From positions 1 through 36,326 of IMG/VR virus record IMGVR_UViG_3300048930_001394: DNA of 36,326 bases, one strand, 5' to 3'. Of the stretch, positions 1 through 36,308 are shown in pieces. The position numbers and the translations under genes were made by a program. The notes under the pieces are model-generated. The model had not been told where the DNA came from and searched no databases. It saw only the letters and a program-made list of their open reading frames with translations. This DNA is from a virus. Numbering within the stretch: the stretch's first letter is position 1; every line of letters starts with the position of its first letter.

Positions 1-99
1 TCACGTGGAGACGGCGCGCTGTTGGTCGAGGGTAAATTGACGAACGAGGAACCCGTCGTTGGTCGCCGCCTGCCAGATGACAAACTCCAGAAGTCTCAT
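1..99 (-). CDS. Small ORF, 32 residues, unknown
   Basis: The frame opens with ATG sharing bases with the TGA of the upstream 284-residue gene (ATGA overlap). It closes with TGA exactly at the first base of the window. The predicted peptide begins MRLLEFVIWQAATNDGF and is mildly hydrophobic at its N terminus. I recognise no family. Support comes only from the stop/start coupling, the same arrangement used throughout this phage. It could equally be a chance frame, or the remnant of a longer gene. Confidence 0.35.
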   Translation of the reverse strand: MRLLEFVIWQAATNDGFLVRQFTLDQQRAVST

Positions 100-950
100 T
101 CCTCATCGGCCTCGAGCACGTCATGGACCTTGAGGATGCGGTAGACCTTCGGCTTGCCCCCGACGGTTTCAACATCCAGATCGACCACGAAGAGCTTCTC
201 GTAAGGATTGCCCTCCGGGCGGGTGATCTCGTCCTTGATCCGCTGCCCGGCCAGGTCCGAGGCATAGACAAGCGCCCGCGGGACCTGATCGATACGCTCG
301 ACGATTCCTTTTTCGGTAGTCCGCTTGCCCACCTTCAGGTTGTCGATGCTCGACTGAAACAGGCGCATGATCACTCGCTCATGCTGCGATCCTGTTCGGT
401 CAGTCAGTTCCCGCCGCTGTGCGATAGCGTTCTGCTCGATCTGCCGCGCTTCTTCTTTCTTGACGACGAACTCGACCAAGACCGGACCATTCGAGTATCT
501 GGCTTGGACCGTGACCTTCCCATCGCTGTCCTGGGCGATGGCATGGATCGAATCAGTCATGTTCTTAAGCTGCTGTGTCGAGGCGTCTGGCACACGGCCC
601 CCGGGGACACGCAAGAGGTCGTAAAGACCCTTCATGTGCTTCACGAATGACACAGCGGTGTTGGTGTACTCGACCGTGCTTACGATCGGAGCGAGCGCCG
701 GCAACAATTGCAGGAGGATCGAGCCCTTCTGGATATCGACCAGGAGAAGCCGAGTTTCCTCGACGTCGATCCCCGGCCTTTGGGCCCGCATGTGGGTCTC
801 GTGCTCTCTCGCAAAGGCGGTCAGGGACGAAGTGAAATCGAGGAGATCGATCGGCTCTGCGTTTTCGATGACAATGACGATCTTCGCCGGGTCTTCCGCA
901 ATTCTCGTGACCTGAGGGAGCCGATCCCCGGAAAGGTTCCCCACAACCAT
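96..950 (-). CDS. Hypothetical protein, 284 aa, possible moron
   Basis: I do not recognise this protein. It is mostly soluble-looking, with a central hydrophobic stretch (about residues 70-115, beginning LLLVDIQKGSILLQLLPAL) and a charged middle (about 165-215). The C-terminal section looks beta-rich, with a KLFVVDLDVE segment and the acidic end EADEE. The start is supported by AGAGGTG eight bases before the ATG. It is separated from the dam gene by about 100 non-coding bases and has visibly lower GC than the structural genes. That fits a separately acquired and separately expressed cargo gene at the phage's mom-side end. Its function is unknown; a host-interaction or superinfection role would be a guess from position only. 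Confidence 0.75.
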   Translation of the reverse strand: MVVGNLSGDRLPQVTRIAEDPAKIVIVIENAEPIDLLDFTSSLTAFAREHETHMRAQRPGIDVEETRLLLVDIQKGSILLQLLPALAPIVSTVEYTNTAVSFVKHMKGLYDLLRVPGGRVPDASTQQLKNMTDSIHAIAQDSDGKVTVQARYSNGPVLVEFVVKKEEARQIEQNAIAQRRELTDRTGSQHERVIMRLFQSSIDNLKVGKRTTEKGIVERIDQVPRALVYASDLAGQRIKDEITRPEGNPYEKLFVVDLDVETVGGKPKVYRILKVHDVLEADEE

Positions 951-1056: not shown

Positions 1057-1863
1057 TTACCCGCCTGTGATGATCAGCTCCCGCCTACCCGTCTGCGCCT
1101 TTCCTGCCGCGATGGTATAGGTCGTCTCCACCTCCTCCATCGCGAACCCAGCGAAGCACTCCCGCACCTCTGGCCGGTCGTTCAGGGACAGGATGAAGCG
1201 CCCTTGAAGGCCCCGTAAAGCCTCCGCGATCGCCGCGAATTCCTCCCGCCGGAAGACGTCCTTCCCATAGTCCCCCTCGCTGCCCCAATAGGGCGGGTCG
1301 AGGTAGAAGAGTGTTCCCGGCGCGTCGTAGCGCCGGATGAACTCCGCCCAGGGCAGGCACTCGATCAGGACGCCGGCGAGGCGGGTGTGCAGGTCCTCGA
1401 GCATCGGCTCCAGCGTGGTCAGGTTGAACCGCGCCGGCCGATCCTTCTGAACGCCGAAGTTCTTCCCCGACACCTTGCCGCCGAAGGCCGTGCGCTGGAG
1501 GTAGAGGAACCGCGCCGCCCGCTCGAGGTCAGTCAGGGTTGCAGGGTCGGTGTCGACCAGGCGGTTGAACTCGACCCGGGTGGTGAGCTGGAAGCGCAAC
1601 ACGTCGAGGAACTGCGGATAGTGCCGCTGCAGGATGCGGAAGAGGGTCGCGATGTCGCGCGAGATGTCGTTGATCGCCTCCGCCCGCGGCCGCAGTGTGC
1701 GACGAAGGAAGACCCCACCCATCCCTACGAATGGCTCCGCATAAAGGACGTGCGGAATGGCCTCGATTCGCTGGATGAGGCGGCGCGCGAGGTTGCGCTT
1801 TCCGCCGATCCAGGGGGCCACGGGTGCGACCGGATCAACCGGGTCGAGGGGCTCGGCCGACAT
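1057..1863 (-). CDS. dam: Dam-type DNA adenine methyltransferase
   Basis: D12-class (GATC-type) N6-adenine methyltransferase of 268 residues. It would transfer a methyl group from S-adenosylmethionine to adenine in phage DNA. Visible motifs are PWIGGKR near residues 17-23 (Dam motif around the AdoMet/DNA site), EPFVGMGGVF at 43-52 (AdoMet-binding) and the catalytic DPPYW at 189-193. Length is normal for Dam enzymes. The start codon lies inside the end of the upstream com gene (29-base overlap), preceded by GGGAG nine bases away. An inverted repeat brackets this start. In Mu this position is held by mom, and Mu-like prophages with dam replacing mom are known. By analogy translation should depend on Com. 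The likely role is protecting phage DNA from restriction. The GATC target is inferred from the family, not shown. Confidence 0.93.
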   Translation of the reverse strand: MSAEPLDPVDPVAPVAPWIGGKRNLARRLIQRIEAIPHVLYAEPFVGMGGVFLRRTLRPRAEAINDISRDIATLFRILQRHYPQFLDVLRFQLTTRVEFNRLVDTDPATLTDLERAARFLYLQRTAFGGKVSGKNFGVQKDRPARFNLTTLEPMLEDLHTRLAGVLIECLPWAEFIRRYDAPGTLFYLDPPYWGSEGDYGKDVFRREEFAAIAEALRGLQGRFILSLNDRPEVRECFAGFAMEEVETTYTIAAGKAQTGRRELIITGG

Positions 1864-1895
1864 TAGTTGGTACTCCCATGCCGCGATCCGGTCGC
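1826..1895 (-). promoter_or_regulatory. Inverted repeat enclosing the dam RBS and start codon
   Basis: The arms 1826-1836 and 1885-1895 are perfect 11-bp complements (GCGACCGGATC and GATCCGGTCGC on the coding strand), separated by 48 bases. The dam Shine-Dalgarno GGGAG and its ATG both lie inside the loop, and an 8-bp palindrome TCGGCCGA starts just after the ATG. The downstream arm covers the com stop codon. In Mu, Com activates mom translation by binding a structured RNA at the mom start. This stem is the natural candidate for the equivalent switch (inference). Confidence 0.55.
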
Positions 1896-2038
1896 TGGGG
1901 CTGGGGGCTCGAGGGCCTCAAATGATTGAAGTGGCGGCAGCGGGGGCACTTGATCGAGATCGTGCACCCCAAGGCGTCGCCCTCGACTTTGAATAGCAAC
2001 CGGCCGCAGCCGCAGCAACGGATTTCCCGAGACTCCAT
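1835..2038 (-). CDS. com: Com-like zinc-binding translational activator
   Basis: A 67-residue protein whose first 40 residues match the Mu Com pattern. It has a CxxC pair at residues 8 and 11 followed by RLLFK, and a second pair in KCPRC at residues 31 and 34, forming a four-cysteine zinc site. The tail after about residue 42 is proline- and arginine-rich. Mu Com is a small zinc finger protein that binds the mom mRNA near its start and opens it for ribosomes. Here the next gene is a Dam-type methylase overlapping com by 29 bases, the same geometry as com-mom. The adjacent 11-bp inverted repeat supports a translational-switch role. The start ATG has a GGAG about 11 bases upstream. Confidence 0.85.
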   Translation of the reverse strand: MESREIRCCGCGRLLFKVEGDALGCTISIKCPRCRHFNHLRPSSPQPQRPDRGMGVPTNVGRAPRPG

Positions 2039-2493: not shown

Positions 2494-5211
2494 TCAGAAC
2501 TCCGGGGTGAGGGCGCGCAGGGACACGTTGTCGATCGCCCCGTCGAATGCGGTGTTTGCTTCGAATGCAATGCTATTGCCGGTGGCGGGAGCGACAAACG
2601 CATATGCATAACTGCCGTTTACGCTCAAAGGTGTGGGCGTCAGCAGGACTCTGCCGTAGACAAACACCGACGAGTTAAGGCGATCCGACAGATCAAATCT
2701 GAGAATGTATGCTTGCCCGGCAACCATCGGTAATTCAGCGTTGGTCTTCCTGATCGTTCCGTACGTCCCTGCTGTGTGGACTGCTTTACCCCCAACAACG
2801 TTCCAACCTGTTCCCGCTCCAAAATCCAACCAACCAGAAGTGCCACTCGAAAAATCTCCATTGGTCGCCAGTTCCGGCCCTTCGACCAGCCACCCCCCCG
2901 CGCCATGCGCCGCGAAGTACCGCATCGCCCGCGCCTGTTCCTCTGCTGACGGGTTGGCTTTCATGATCGCGTAGCCGACGAGCTCTAACCGCGAAGACCA
3001 CGGCACTGTCCCGACCGCGCGCAGAATGCCAGTCGGACAGCCAGACACGAGCACGCCGTCATCGAGAGCGGACAGAGGGCCGAGCTGCAGGACAGAGGGG
3101 GCGGCCAGCGTGATCGACGGGATGAGGAACGACCCGCCACGACCGAAGAGCGCGACCGCGACCGTGCCACCAGCGGCAAGCTGGTGCAGCAGCGCGTCGT
3201 CGGAGCCGTCGAAGGAGAGCAGGCCGAAGGACGTGACGCCGGATTCGGTGACGTCGGTCGGGGTGGCGCCGCGGCGCTGGTAGGCCGTGCGGGCATTGCC
3301 GACCTCCGCTTGGATATTGCGCATCCGCAAGGTTCCGGTGGTCGGCGCATCACACCCGAGACCCAGCCGGAAATTGACTGCGCCCCCCGTCGCTCCTGCG
3401 GTAAGGCTCAACGATACAACGTCGCCCTGCGATACAGTGGCAGACGCCGCGACCGGATTTCCGTTGATGCGATACTGCGAAGTAGGGCTTGAAAGAGTGC
3501 CGGTCCACCCGATCAGAGTCTGGGCCAGCGTTGACGCCCCTGTTAGCAACTCTGCGATGTACGATGCGGTGACGGTCTGACCCGGATTTACGGTGACGCT
3601 AGGCGCGTTCAGGAAAGGGCGGTTCGCGGACGCAGAGAAATCTATGAAACCCTCCCCGACAGCTACCACGGTCCCAGGCACACCGCTCATGCTGTATCCC
3701 GTCGGCGCGGTCCCCGGCGTGCCCGCCACCGCCCCTGCGAGATCGCTGTTCGTCAGAAGGTTCCGCACCTGCGCAGGCGCGCGACCCCACGTCGGGCGGG
3801 CGGCGGCGGTATTCTGGTAGGCGGGCCAGTTGAGGATTTCCTTGACGGAGACCCCAGCCACGGACCCCTCAGACCCAGCAGATATGGCACGAACGCGAAG
3901 GCCGTCTGTGGACGTTGCAACAACGATGCGGCGGGTGCCAGGTGCGTCAGTGGTATAGTCCGCTCCAACACCCGCGCCACCGAAGATAACTCGGAAGCTT
4001 GTGCCAGAGACAAAGTCCAGATCGGTCACCTCGACAAGATACGACTTTCCGACTGTGACGCCCGCAATCGCGCGGGAGATGTCGGCATTTGCACCGCCGG
4101 CAACGACCTGAGCGCGGCCTCCTGTGACAGACCAGCCCGTCCCCAAAGTCCATCCCGTAGCACTGTCAAAACCCGGATCAGGGTTCAACTCGCTTCCCAG
4201 CGTCAGCCCCTGCCAGTCATCCGCCGCCAGCGCCACCGCAGTCCCCGGCGCACTGACTGCCGTCACTCCGTCCGCGCCGAAGATCCGCGCGGTGTCGTGC
4301 GCCAGGATGAACACATTGGGCCCTGTCCCGCGCAGGGTCTCGGCGTTCCAGTTGCTGATGATCGCCATTGTCGACGTGGTGCCGCGCAGGCTGTCGGTCG
4401 CGGTCTGGCGCAGGCCAGTATCCCACCAGCCCGAGGGGACAGGGAAAGTGTAGGAGCCCTGCGAAACCAGGTGCAGGACATCCATGGGCGTGATCGCTGC
4501 CGCAGCGAGCTGCGCCGCTGCCTGCGCACCGAGGGCGATGTCCCGGGCGGCTTCGGCCCCCGTGCGGGCGGTCTGCGCGCCTGTCTGGGCGGTCTCGGCT
4601 GCGGTGCGAGCAGTCTGAGCGCCTGTCTGCGCGGTCTCTGCGCCCGTGCGGGCCGTTTCAGCACCGGTCCGAGCGGTCTCCGCCCCGGTGCGCGCCGTCG
4701 ATGCAAGGCCCGCTTGCGTGGTCGCGACCCCGGCCTGCGTCGTCGCGGTGGTCGCGGCGTCAATCGCCGTATCCCGCGCGCCCTCGGCCGCCACCTGAGC
4801 CGCCTCGGCATTGGTCTCGGCGGTCTCGGCATTCGTCTCTGCCAGCTCGGCCGCCGCCTGCGCCGCCTGCGCCGCATCCCGCGCCGCCTGGGAGAGCACG
4901 ACGTCGCCGGGAGTGATCGGCGGGGCTGCCGGCTTGATGCAGTCCGCCAGAGCCGCCGTTTCCGCCTCGGGCACGGAGATCGGGAACTGCCAGGTGCGCC
5001 CCGTATCGGCGACAAGACCAGTGTAGAGGCCCGGCATGAGTGGCACACTCAGTACACCGCTGCCATCGCTGATGGCGGTGATTTCCTTGGGCAGGACGGT
5101 CTTGCCATACTGGCCAACGACGCCGCCGGCGCGGATGACCACCTTTGTGTTCGGGGCAAGCGCGCCGGTCGGATCGATGAGGTGGCCAGAGACGATGCAG
5201 GTGTCGGTCAT
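2494..5211 (-). CDS. Tail fibre protein, 905 aa
   Basis: Large modular receptor-binding fibre. Residues 1-100 form a beta-rich N-terminal domain, probably attaching to the tail tip. Residues 105-240 are Ala/Thr/Glu-rich and helical, including near-exact seven-residue repeats of the TARTGAE type (172-228), a typical trimeric coiled-coil shaft. The rest contains at least two and perhaps three lectin-like beta-sandwich modules with the recurring pattern 'N-x-D/G-F-S...TGW...W-x-V-x-x-G-x-A', one near residues 340-460 and one at the very C terminus. Such modules bind carbohydrates in known tail fibres. The DNA of the last 110 codons is noticeably more AT-rich than the shaft, suggesting exchange of the receptor-binding tip. 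It starts with ATG overlapping the preceding small gene. Confidence 0.88.
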   Translation of the reverse strand: MTDTCIVSGHLIDPTGALAPNTKVVIRAGGVVGQYGKTVLPKEITAISDGSGVLSVPLMPGLYTGLVADTGRTWQFPISVPEAETAALADCIKPAAPPITPGDVVLSQAARDAAQAAQAAAELAETNAETAETNAEAAQVAAEGARDTAIDAATTATTQAGVATTQAGLASTARTGAETARTGAETARTGAETAQTGAQTARTAAETAQTGAQTARTGAEAARDIALGAQAAAQLAAAAITPMDVLHLVSQGSYTFPVPSGWWDTGLRQTATDSLRGTTSTMAIISNWNAETLRGTGPNVFILAHDTARIFGADGVTAVSAPGTAVALAADDWQGLTLGSELNPDPGFDSATGWTLGTGWSVTGGRAQVVAGGANADISRAIAGVTVGKSYLVEVTDLDFVSGTSFRVIFGGAGVGADYTTDAPGTRRIVVATSTDGLRVRAISAGSEGSVAGVSVKEILNWPAYQNTAAARPTWGRAPAQVRNLLTNSDLAGAVAGTPGTAPTGYSMSGVPGTVVAVGEGFIDFSASANRPFLNAPSVTVNPGQTVTASYIAELLTGASTLAQTLIGWTGTLSSPTSQYRINGNPVAASATVSQGDVVSLSLTAGATGGAVNFRLGLGCDAPTTGTLRMRNIQAEVGNARTAYQRRGATPTDVTESGVTSFGLLSFDGSDDALLHQLAAGGTVAVALFGRGGSFLIPSITLAAPSVLQLGPLSALDDGVLVSGCPTGILRAVGTVPWSSRLELVGYAIMKANPSAEEQARAMRYFAAHGAGGWLVEGPELATNGDFSSGTSGWLDFGAGTGWNVVGGKAVHTAGTYGTIRKTNAELPMVAGQAYILRFDLSDRLNSSVFVYGRVLLTPTPLSVNGSYAYAFVAPATGNSIAFEANTAFDGAIDNVSLRALTPEF
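4528..4698 (-). repeat. Degenerate 21-bp tandem repeats in the tail fibre gene
   Basis: About eight copies of a 21-base unit encode the heptad series TARTGAE/TAQTGAQ/TARTAAE (fibre residues 172-228). Third codon positions have drifted while the peptide is conserved, so the array is maintained as a coiled-coil shaft. It is a site where fibre length could change by slippage or recombination in 7-residue steps. Confidence 0.8.
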
Positions 5212-33053: not shown

Positions 33054-33625
33054 CGCCCGGCTCCCATGGTGAAGACCTCATGGGAGTTGGGGTCGAAGAT
33101 CTGCCGGGCGCGCTGGACCTGCGGTGCTCTCGGCCCGTTGTTGCGGACGAGGCGATACCGGGCGAGCTTGCCCTTCCTGCCTTCAGCCGCCTTGATCACG
33201 CGCAGGTAGCCGGCCGCGAAGAGATCCTTGCAGTAGGTCCGGGCGGTCCGCTCCTCGATCAGGATCGAAGCCGTCTGAACAAGCTCGGCCGCCGTGAACT
33301 CCTTGAGGATATACATCCCGCGCCAGAGCTGTTCCTTGACGGTGCCATTGACCGTGGGGCTCCCATCTTCACGCAGTCGGGGCGCCTCGATCCCGCAGTC
33401 CTTTTCGAGCCTCCACTCGAGAGCGGCGCCAGGAGCGGTCGGGACCGTCACGAGGAACCCCGCTGCCGTCAGCCCGCGGAGGTAACTCCGAGCGGTTTGG
33501 CGCGAACAGGATGCAGCGGTGGTGATTTCGCGGATGGTGAACGGCTTTCCATCCGGAAAGGCTCGGATGGCAGCCCACATCGCGTCCCTCACCGACGGCA
33601 CTTCATTGACGGGCTTGCGCGTCAT
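33050..33625 (-). CDS. Winged-helix-like protein, 191 aa
   Basis: Two winged-helix-like segments. The first is at about residues 12-60 (FTIREITTAASCSRQTARSY with LRGLTAAGFLVTV). The second is at about 95-150 (LKEFTAAELVQTASILIEER, TARTYCKDLFAAGYLRVI). A basic C terminus follows. The start ATG shares one base with the MuB stop (TGATG). This kind of tandem winged-helix protein recurs next to MuB in rhodobacterial transposable phages (as far as I recognise). It may help regulate the early operon or the transposition complex. Confidence 0.72.
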   Translation of the reverse strand: MTRKPVNEVPSVRDAMWAAIRAFPDGKPFTIREITTAASCSRQTARSYLRGLTAAGFLVTVPTAPGAALEWRLEKDCGIEAPRLREDGSPTVNGTVKEQLWRGMYILKEFTAAELVQTASILIEERTARTYCKDLFAAGYLRVIKAAEGRKGKLARYRLVRNNGPRAPQVQRARQIFDPNSHEVFTMGAGR

Positions 33626-34377
33626 CAGACCACCCTCCTCGGCGCCGGGGCTTCCCCGGAGAAGAGCGTGATCTTCCGCATGTCGTCTGCAGTGATGGTC
33701 GTCGCGCCAGTTGTCATGGCGTGTTCCGCGATCTGGCGGAGGTTCACGACGATGCGCCGGGCGCGTGCCTGCGATGCCTCAAGGACAATTTGGGCGGCTT
33801 CGGGCGAGATCTCCACGCCGGGGCATTTCAGGCGGGCAAGGAGACCGACCTCGCGAAGGTCGGCGGGCTGCGCCTGCACCCAGTCGAGCATGCGGTTGTG
33901 AACCCGCTCCCAGCGCCGAAGGGTCTGTGGCAAGTTCTCCTCCCCGATCAGGATCACGGTCCCCTGCGAACTCTCGTAGATGTCGCGGACGACACCGATC
34001 ATCCCGTCCTTTGCGACGAGGTCGGCTTCATCGATCAGGAGTGGACGACCGGACCGGCTCAGCTGGTCGCCGATCTGCTCAACCATGTCGCCGATGGTGC
34101 GGCCGGGATTGGTGATCCCCATTGACCGCAAGATCATCTCGGCCAGCTTCTTGCGCGACCAGGTAGATTTGACCTCGACCCAATAGGCGCGGGTCTCCTG
34201 CGCATTCCAGACCGCCGCGTAGGACTTGCCGTAACCCGATGGACCGAAAAAACATGCCAGTCCCGGCAGGTCAAAATCGCGGTTCATCACCCTGTTGATC
34301 AAGGCGTTCATCAGCATCACGTTGCGCAAGGGCGCCACGTTGCCGACTGTGTTGAAGTTTCCTGCTTCTTCCCTCAT
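33625..34377 (-). CDS. Transposition target-capture ATPase (MuB-like), 250 aa
   Basis: AAA+ ATPase with Walker A GPSGYGKS (residues 45-52) and Walker B LLIDEAD (113-119), followed by a sensor-type segment VILIGEENLP and a C-terminal helical bundle. MuB polymerises on target DNA with ATP, stimulates the transposase and gives target immunity. Start taken at ATG at 34377 with GGAGAG six bases upstream. A longer GTG start coupled to the transposase stop (GTGA) would add only Gly/Arg/Ser residues. This version lacks an extended N-terminal HTH such as that of Mu B. Confidence 0.92.
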   Translation of the reverse strand: MREEAGNFNTVGNVAPLRNVMLMNALINRVMNRDFDLPGLACFFGPSGYGKSYAAVWNAQETRAYWVEVKSTWSRKKLAEMILRSMGITNPGRTIGDMVEQIGDQLSRSGRPLLIDEADLVAKDGMIGVVRDIYESSQGTVILIGEENLPQTLRRWERVHNRMLDWVQAQPADLREVGLLARLKCPGVEISPEAAQIVLEASQARARRIVVNLRQIAEHAMTTGATTITADDMRKITLFSGEAPAPRRVV

Positions 34378-34433
34378 GATCTCTCCACTGCTTCTACTGC
34401 CGCCGCGGGGCCTGTCCGCCCCCGGCGGCGACT

Positions 34434-36308
34434 TCACCCGATGCCCTGCTCTCCAAAGCGCAAGAACATCGTCTTCTGAGCCTGGTATTCGGGGAGCCGC
34501 TGCATGCGGGCCCAGAACTCGGCATCCTCCTTCGAGACGACCTCACCGGCTTCCGAGCGGCGCTCGATAGCGAGAGCGCGGTAGAAGCGCTCCGCTGCGG
34601 TCTCGGCCGGGACGGTCGGCGGCGGGGGCCGCTTCTCGAACTTCACGTTGAAGACGTTGAGCCGTTCCTCATCCCGCGTGTCCGGCACCGGGATCGGACG
34701 TTCGATGACCGGCTTCCGCGTCCGGGCGGGGGACAGTTCCACAACCTTTGCGTCGACGAGCGGCGTCTCCGGCTTGGGAAGTGTGCGAAGCTCCGCCGCC
34801 CATTCGCCGACCGTGACGGGCCGGTGCATGTCGAGGTCCTTGCGGACAGACGCCCGTTGCTGCCGCTTGAGCCGTGCGGCGGTCTTTGCTCCGACGAGGT
34901 CGAAGAAGCCGACCTTTTCACGGCACTCCGCCGCCCCAAGGAACTCTCCGTCTATCGAATAGATGTAGAGGCCAGCGTGAAGGTCCTCGGGGTCGAACCG
35001 TGCGACCACCTTCTCGCCGACGTGCTCGTTCATCCAGTCGGCCCAGTAGCTGTTCTCGAACAGCTGGAAGGCGCCATGATGCTTGTGCAGCTTCCGGACT
35101 TCCTGACCCATCAGCCAGAGCCGATGCTGCTCAGGCGTCGCCTTGCGGATCGGCGCCACGGCATAGCTCTCGGCGAAGGTCTCGTCGAAGCTCCGGCCCT
35201 TGGCCGTGTCGGACAACCGGCCCGGCCGCGCGTTGTGCTCGGCAACACAGACCTCGACCACTTCGAGGAAGTCGGCCAGGGGAATGGCCCGGCTGCCATA
35301 GTCTTCCGGCTTGGCAAGCGTGTTCGGCCCGACATAGGCCCCGGCAAAGGCGGGGTGGCGCGCGATGTCATCAGCGAAGTCGCGAAAGGTCCGCTCGATC
35401 GGCTTCGCCTGGCCGTGGCCCGGCGTTGCCCAGTGGATCTTCACGCCGAGCTGGGGAAGGACTCCAAGCGCATCGTCTTCGCGGACTTTGAACCGGAAGC
35501 GCGTCGGGGTCCCACCGGTCAACCACTTGTTGGCGAACTCGCGGCCGTTGTCGAAGAGGCAATGCCGGGGAATACCCCATGTCTCGACGAGCTCGCCGAA
35601 GGCGGACATGACCGCCACCTTGTTGGGGTCGAGGTCGATCTTCCAGGAGAGGACCTTGCCCGAGAAGAGGTCTGTGAAGGCGACGATGTGCACCCGCACC
35701 GGCCGCTCAATCTCGGGCCAGAGCACGAAGACGTCGAGCTTGTGGCAGTCTGCAACCACGCCTTCGAGAGCAGAGAGGGAGGAGCGATCACGGATCTGGG
35801 GCGGGAAGCAGCGCGCCAGCCCCTTCTCGCCCTCCCGGGCGTAGACCTGCGTCACATGGGGGACGTGTTCCTTGAACCAGCGCAAGGTCGCCTGGTACTC
35901 CAGGAAGGCAAGCCCCTTGGCCTCGCACCAGCCGACGACCCGCCGATGGGCGGAGCGGAGGCTGGGCCCGCCGAGACGAAGATAGTCAGCCCGGATACGG
36001 TCAAGGAATTCAGGGCTGCAGATGGCGCGCTGGCGGGTCGGCTTGGTCGCGCGATGACGGGGGGCCAGATAGGCCAGCCAGTCAGCCTGGTCGATACCGT
36101 CGATCATCCCGATCCAGTTCCAGATCGAGCGGGCTGAAACTCCTTCCGGCTTGGCAACAGATGCCACCGCCAGCGCCCGCCCCATCGCCCCCTCCAGGCC
36201 GACCACCTGGTGGATCATCTTCAGGCGGGCCTTTGCCTTTGCCTTCACCGACTCGGGCAATCCGTCGAACCACGCCCACACGCCATCACGGTCGGAAGGA
36301 TTGCCCAT
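34434..36308 (-). CDS. DDE transposase (MuA-like), possibly lacking its N-terminus at the window edge
   Basis: The catalytic core shows all three acidic residues in their MuA contexts: D187 in ADCHKLDVFV, D253 in LFDNGREFANKWLTGG, and E305 in GHGQAKPIERTF. A core-adjacent segment with FRFKVREDD is also characteristic. The first 160 residues contain HTH-like helices (GVSARSIWNWIGMIDGID). The C-terminal region is basic and proline-rich, as in the MuB-contact domain. The enzyme cuts the phage ends and joins them to target DNA for integration and replicative transposition. The frame remains open upstream of the ATG up to the window edge, so MuA's first (enhancer-binding) domain may lie outside. 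The 624 residues seen may therefore be partial. Confidence 0.95.
   Translation of the reverse strand: MGNPSDRDGVWAWFDGLPESVKAKAKARLKMIHQVVGLEGAMGRALAVASVAKPEGVSARSIWNWIGMIDGIDQADWLAYLAPRHRATKPTRQRAICSPEFLDRIRADYLRLGGPSLRSAHRRVVGWCEAKGLAFLEYQATLRWFKEHVPHVTQVYAREGEKGLARCFPPQIRDRSSLSALEGVVADCHKLDVFVLWPEIERPVRVHIVAFTDLFSGKVLSWKIDLDPNKVAVMSAFGELVETWGIPRHCLFDNGREFANKWLTGGTPTRFRFKVREDDALGVLPQLGVKIHWATPGHGQAKPIERTFRDFADDIARHPAFAGAYVGPNTLAKPEDYGSRAIPLADFLEVVEVCVAEHNARPGRLSDTAKGRSFDETFAESYAVAPIRKATPEQHRLWLMGQEVRKLHKHHGAFQLFENSYWADWMNEHVGEKVVARFDPEDLHAGLYIYSIDGEFLGAAECREKVGFFDLVGAKTAARLKRQQRASVRKDLDMHRPVTVGEWAAELRTLPKPETPLVDAKVVELSPARTRKPVIERPIPVPDTRDEERLNVFNVKFEKRPPPPTVPAETAAERFYRALAIERRSEAGEVVSKEDAEFWARMQRLPEYQAQKTMFLRFGEQGIG

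Follow-up and report, generated by a model that had tools for sequence, protein, structure and literature searches.

A small hairpin at the 3' end of com as a probable translational gate on an adenine methylase gene of a Mu-like phage and on other modification genes

A short hairpin at the 3' end of com, here termed the Com box, very likely places translation of the downstream adenine methylase gene dam under the control of Com, and this reading, drawn from comparison of related sequences, is the best explanation of the observations assembled here. More broadly, the Com box, often present as two hairpins about two RNA-helix turns apart, probably represents an undescribed family of cis-regulatory RNA, a portable translational gate on at least four unrelated modification enzymes (D12 and N6/N4 methylases, C5 methylases and Mom), with the inhibitory structure re-evolved for each target. 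The com-mom pair of phage Mu is a classic example of translational activation, so far treated as the peculiarity of one phage. A conserved Com box beyond Mu found no description in the literature searched, outside which subscription papers mostly fell.

Results

The window, by which we mean the whole stretch of DNA analysed, is the 36,326-base virus record IMGVR_UViG_3300048930_001394 (positions 1-36,326). Judged by its gene content, the phage is Mu-like and transposable: genes for a transposase (phrog_310) and a DNA transposition protein (phrog_296) lie at 33625-36308, and after them come, likewise on the minus strand, those for the terminase, portal, capsid and tail. Phages of Rhodovulum, Pelagibaca and Thiobacimonas have terminase genes with 73-79% identity to that of the window. 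The genes com and dam, the latter encoding a D12 methylase, are found near the right end of the phage, beyond the tail-fibre genes (Table 1). The original prediction had placed a Com-like zinc protein of 67 residues immediately upstream of dam and overlapping it, and this is what the gene pair displays: com lies directly 5' of the modification gene with an overlap of 29 nt, the layout of com-mom, and its product exceeds the cut-off of the Com zinc ribbon family, keeps all four cysteines in the family alignment and also matches phrog_6417 (translational regulator, E 3.7e-12) and phrog_13819 (gpCom). The closest solved structure to the dam product is DpnM (2dpm, E 1e-11), the PDB matches to DpnM and Dam being of low similarity. 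On the 3' side of dam, a 284-aa gene (96-950, minus strand) matches phrog_9226, a family of unknown function.

Table 1 Features of the com-dam region, in positions of the window
Feature	Positions	Strand	Description
com	1835-2038	minus	67-aa four-cysteine zinc protein, Com family; PF10122 Zn_ribbon_Com, 42.8 bits, E 3.6e-11, cut-off 22.9
dam	1057-1863	minus	268-aa D12-class adenine methyltransferase; PF02086 E 5.9e-20; phrog_56 E 3e-74
dam ATG	1861-1863	minus	start codon
dam ribosome-binding site GGGAG	1873-1877	minus	9 nt 5' of ATG; from sequence
Com box (box 2)	1883-1895	minus	13-nt GCGA-CCGGA-UCGC, in com 3' end; loop start 28 nt before dam ATG
Candidate second Com box (box 1)	1906-1917	minus	GGC-CCUCGA-GCC, 3 bp only; loop start 23 nt upstream of that of box 2
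Candidate inhibitory hairpin CGGCAU/AUGUCG	1858-1883	minus	ribosome site in loop, ATG in 3' arm; inferred
Upstream repeat arm (mRNA sense)	1885-1895	minus	inside com, within Com box 1883-1895
Downstream repeat arm	1826-1836	minus	in dam codons 10-13; 11-bp pairing with Com box possible, judged incidental

Alignment-based scans of viral and genome contigs gathered 149 distinct com loci; scans with a single Com protein had returned no match in viral contigs and one weak match in phage records. When the leaders were aligned side by side, they were seen to share a small stem-loop within the 3' portion of com, with boxes such as ACGC-CCCGA-GCGU, GCGC-CCGGA-GCGU and GCGC-CCAGGA-GCGC among the relatives. 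In the window its loop fits the C-NN-GA of the Mu Com motif, the closing C-G being replaced by A-U. Many loci carry a second hairpin, GGGC-CNNGA-GCCC, with the two loop starts 22 nt apart. The candidate box 1 of the window is probably such a second Com box, as it occupies the position homologous to box 1 of the tandem class; its three pairs are invariant in alphaproteobacterial relatives and receive no covariation support within the class of the window. The tandem covariance model R1 reached only 12.4 bits on the window (rank 2, not significant), so the class of the window needed a model of its own. This model, R2, trained on 21 alphaproteobacterial leaders with the window and locus L182 left out, finds a match at 1874-1921 (minus strand) with 42.9 bits, part of which conserved com codons account for (E about 6e-13; next best 12.8 bits). 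The window matched none of the curated families of Rfam 15, and at a relaxed threshold nothing relevant appeared.

Because the hairpins lie inside coding sequence, com was recoded synonymously as a control, with the protein fixed and local codon usage applied. In counts that, like the covariation statistics, ignore kinship among the loci, 123 of the 148 com ORFs carry a Com box where such recoding leads one to expect 15.7 ± 3.6, and tandem boxes occur at 47 loci where 0.06 would be expected. Among 49 tandem leaders picked by loop motif and register alone, uncurated, every stem pair is standard in most members, and double compensatory changes are found in all eight pairs of 38 clean tandem leaders, a set curated by eye, for which the value of 99.7% paired cells is therefore inflated. 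In the alphaproteobacterial class of the window (23 relatives), the closing pair, which joins two third codon positions, occurs as C-G, A-U, G-C, G-U and U-A.

The distance from the box loop to the downstream start is 28.6 ± 2.7 nt over 91 leaders (search limited to 22-39 nt), whereas the com stop lies anywhere between 56 nt ahead of the dam start and 77 nt past it; on these distances, the box is anchored to the start of the next gene and not to the stop of com. For the com-dam pairs the methylase start was fixed before the boxes were noticed, and in most of them a box loop stands 25-35 nt 5' of that start. Equal geometry is seen before D12 (39), N6/N4 (18) and C5 (10) methylases and before Mom (17), and since the same hairpin stands at the same distance before at least four unrelated modification genes, control of the Mu com-mom kind appears portable.

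Other arrangements around com were also observed. In loci L098, L101, L176, L179 and L217 and their relatives, the next gene does not overlap com and encodes a putative ATPase that is extended at its C terminus and matches Pfam ABC_tran, and a ParB-like gene follows Com in L097 and L178; both are candidates for further modification systems linked to Com. The partner class of L012, L031, L099, L174 and L190, about 300 aa long, starting MWLFVPP and without a Pfam match, may be either a reading frame that overlaps some other gene or an enzyme as yet unknown. In L181 (about 3856-3905) and L172 (about 3593-3648), a distant dam, which follows an intact pair of com and a C5-methylase gene at about 1 kb, is preceded by box-like stretches left over from the 3' end of a com and lacking the zinc-finger part; these may belong to a second mRNA under the trans control of a single Com, or to a decayed com.

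Of the 80 nearest Dam loci, only those with com give strong R2 matches. Likewise, a set of 248 genomes from a single bacterial family has PF10122 in seven, each with a box at the 3' end of com (7/7), and these seven include the six best R2 matches among the 248. Twelve weak R2 matches (23-26 bits) in com-less genomes look like chance, judged by those listed.

The predicted energetics of the leaders were compared with swaps, in which the downstream half is taken from a GC-matched relative. Over 72 leaders, box formation costs 4.26 kcal/mol in native RNA and 2.14 in the swaps (p 2e-5), that is, the surrounding native sequence destabilises the hairpin, as would be expected of a switch. Native RNA also has a less accessible start than the swaps (p 0.036), and when the box is forced, accessibility of the start recovers more in native RNA than in the swaps (p 0.016); reordering the first 14 codons alone removed the accessibility difference (p 0.26) and left the box cost significant (p 3e-4). 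The segment following the box pairs with the start region at -6.49 kcal/mol against -5.76 ± 0.22 in permuted combinations, and pairing of the box with downstream RNA is only marginally stronger than permuted across the family (-13.8 vs -13.2 ± 0.3). An exact 4-nt anti-arm between box and start occurs at 14 loci against 7.2 ± 2.3, a suggestive excess that concerns a minority of loci. The predicted family-wide competition between box and flank fits the Mu scheme, in which an inhibitory structure is relieved by Com. For the window itself the predicted switch effect is weak: forming the Com box costs only 0.38 kcal/mol, the candidate inhibitory hairpin has a low predicted occupancy of about 0.28, and a forced box opens the AUG but leaves the leading GGG of the ribosome site closed.

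The switch device had originally been taken to be an 11-bp perfect inverted repeat around the dam start, an inhibitory structure that Com would open. The repeat is exact (11/11, 48-nt spacer), it does enclose the ribosome site and ATG of dam, its upstream arm lies inside the Com box, it and that box are mutually exclusive, and the box-to-downstream duplex of the window, at -24.5 kcal/mol, is the strongest of 74 leaders. Nevertheless, the repeat stands at chance level. The window contains two repeats of at least 11 bp with a spacer of up to 60 nt, against about 1.2 expected in order-1 Markov sequences, and with the Dam protein fixed and its codons redrawn synonymously, such a repeat arises between 60 nt upstream and the first 72 nt of dam with P = 0.135. 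Folding of a 91-nt stretch gave a stability not above that of shuffles (z -0.94), and once slightly more flanking sequence is included, the 11-bp stem no longer features in the minimum-energy structure, its ensemble probability being 0.39. It is also not kept in relatives: of about 90 related leaders, L182 alone carries a counterpart, of 10 bp, whose downstream arm is built from other codons though the Dam proteins are 68% identical. Together with the near-permutation strength of box-to-downstream pairing across the family, these results make it improbable that the repeat is the structure opened by Com. As an RNA element it is ordinary, and we assign a low probability to its contributing to the closure of dam in the window. 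Hence the original idea of Com-gated dam translation draws strong support from comparative evidence, through the small hairpin, where the covariation looked for in related com-dam sequences is abundant, whereas the long repeat, for which covariation is absent, does not stand as the device. Feedback through GATC methylation in the arms, also suggested at that stage, finds no support: GATC is present 358 times in the window, where base composition would give about 114, so its presence in the arms is unremarkable, and GATC specificity of the dam product is at most putative, its score against the Dam subfamily model TIGR00571 being 83.6 bits, under the cut-off of 114.85.

Discussion

A different reading would be that Com control of dam has been lost, with translation coupled through the com-dam overlap and the boxes left as remnants. 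The overlap is indeed present in 45 of 47 pairs, dam leaders without com have no box, and most close Dam relatives are without com, which makes Com dispensable for this enzyme family. Such a loss is nonetheless very unlikely, given that the boxes are intact, show compensatory changes and hold a fixed spacing even where the com stop precedes the partner start. Still harder to believe is that the hairpins are a by-product of the Com C-terminal peptide LRPxSPxPxRPERD with no RNA function, for although the boxes sit at fixed com codons, chiefly in phases 0 and 2, and the stem is in part dictated by the codons CGN-CCN-GAN-CGN, the boxes are lost on synonymous redraw of com, the paired third codon positions covary, box position is tied to the partner start rather than the com stop, and the C-terminal tail of Com is unnecessary for RNA binding (PMC6483171).

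Gating of dam by Com through the small hairpin, the reading we prefer, can be put as a tentative mechanism in which com and dam would together be a modification cassette, gated by Com, in a transposable phage of the Mu type; both binding and activation by Com we infer from homology to Mu and from the motif. On the com-dam mRNA, Com would dock on the loop of the hairpin at 1883-1895 and perhaps also on the weaker hairpin at 1906-1917. Without Com, the hairpin segment would pair with neighbouring or downstream RNA, and this alternative pairing would keep the ribosome site and start of dam partly closed. Bound Com would then fix the hairpin and the start would open, such that dam would be translated only after Com has accumulated.

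An operator of the Mu com-mom type that is conserved, covarying and at a fixed distance from the start across unrelated modification enzymes suggests that phages must restrain self-modification whatever its chemistry. The comparison also yields a concrete definition of the Com binding site, it predicts which methylases are gated by Com, and the long-open problem of how Com opens the mRNA becomes testable in many natural variants.

For Mu, SELEX and probing have defined the Com target as CC(N)2-3GAG in a hairpin loop, with C-G as the only closing pair in SELEX, and Mu's own target is AUGC-CUGCGA-GCAU (PMC6483171). The window shares with Mu com-mom a Com-family zinc gene just upstream of and overlapping a modification gene, a hairpin loop of the form C-NN(N)-GA, and a similar distance from loop to start codon, 26 nt for mom and 28 nt for dam. 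The closing pair is A-U in the window and C-G in Mu, the loop has 5 nt rather than 6, and leaders related to that of the window have two boxes where one has been shown in Mu. The inhibitory hairpin of Mu, CCCAC/GUGGG, is clear, whereas the putative CGGCAU/AUGUCG of the window is similar in layout but a weak counterpart. Since the target in the window is a D12 adenine methylase and not Mom, the pair is better said to work like com-mom than to be com-mom.

The same overlapping pair is found in Pseudomonas phage B3, where ORF47 and ORF48 encode a Com-like protein and a DNA methyltransferase; for the regulation of this pair the literature searched held no description. Both Com boxes are present in B3, the nearer loop lying 25 nt before the methylase start, although its Dam is only 42.5% identical to that of the window. 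The adenine methylases Hin1523, Hia5 and Nma1821 reportedly occupy the mom position in Mu-like prophages, as Drozdz et al. are said to have described in 2012, and by description they resemble the dam of the window in being adenine methylases in place of mom. These enzymes are described as adenine methylases of Mu-like prophages with extremely short targets (PMC5399793).
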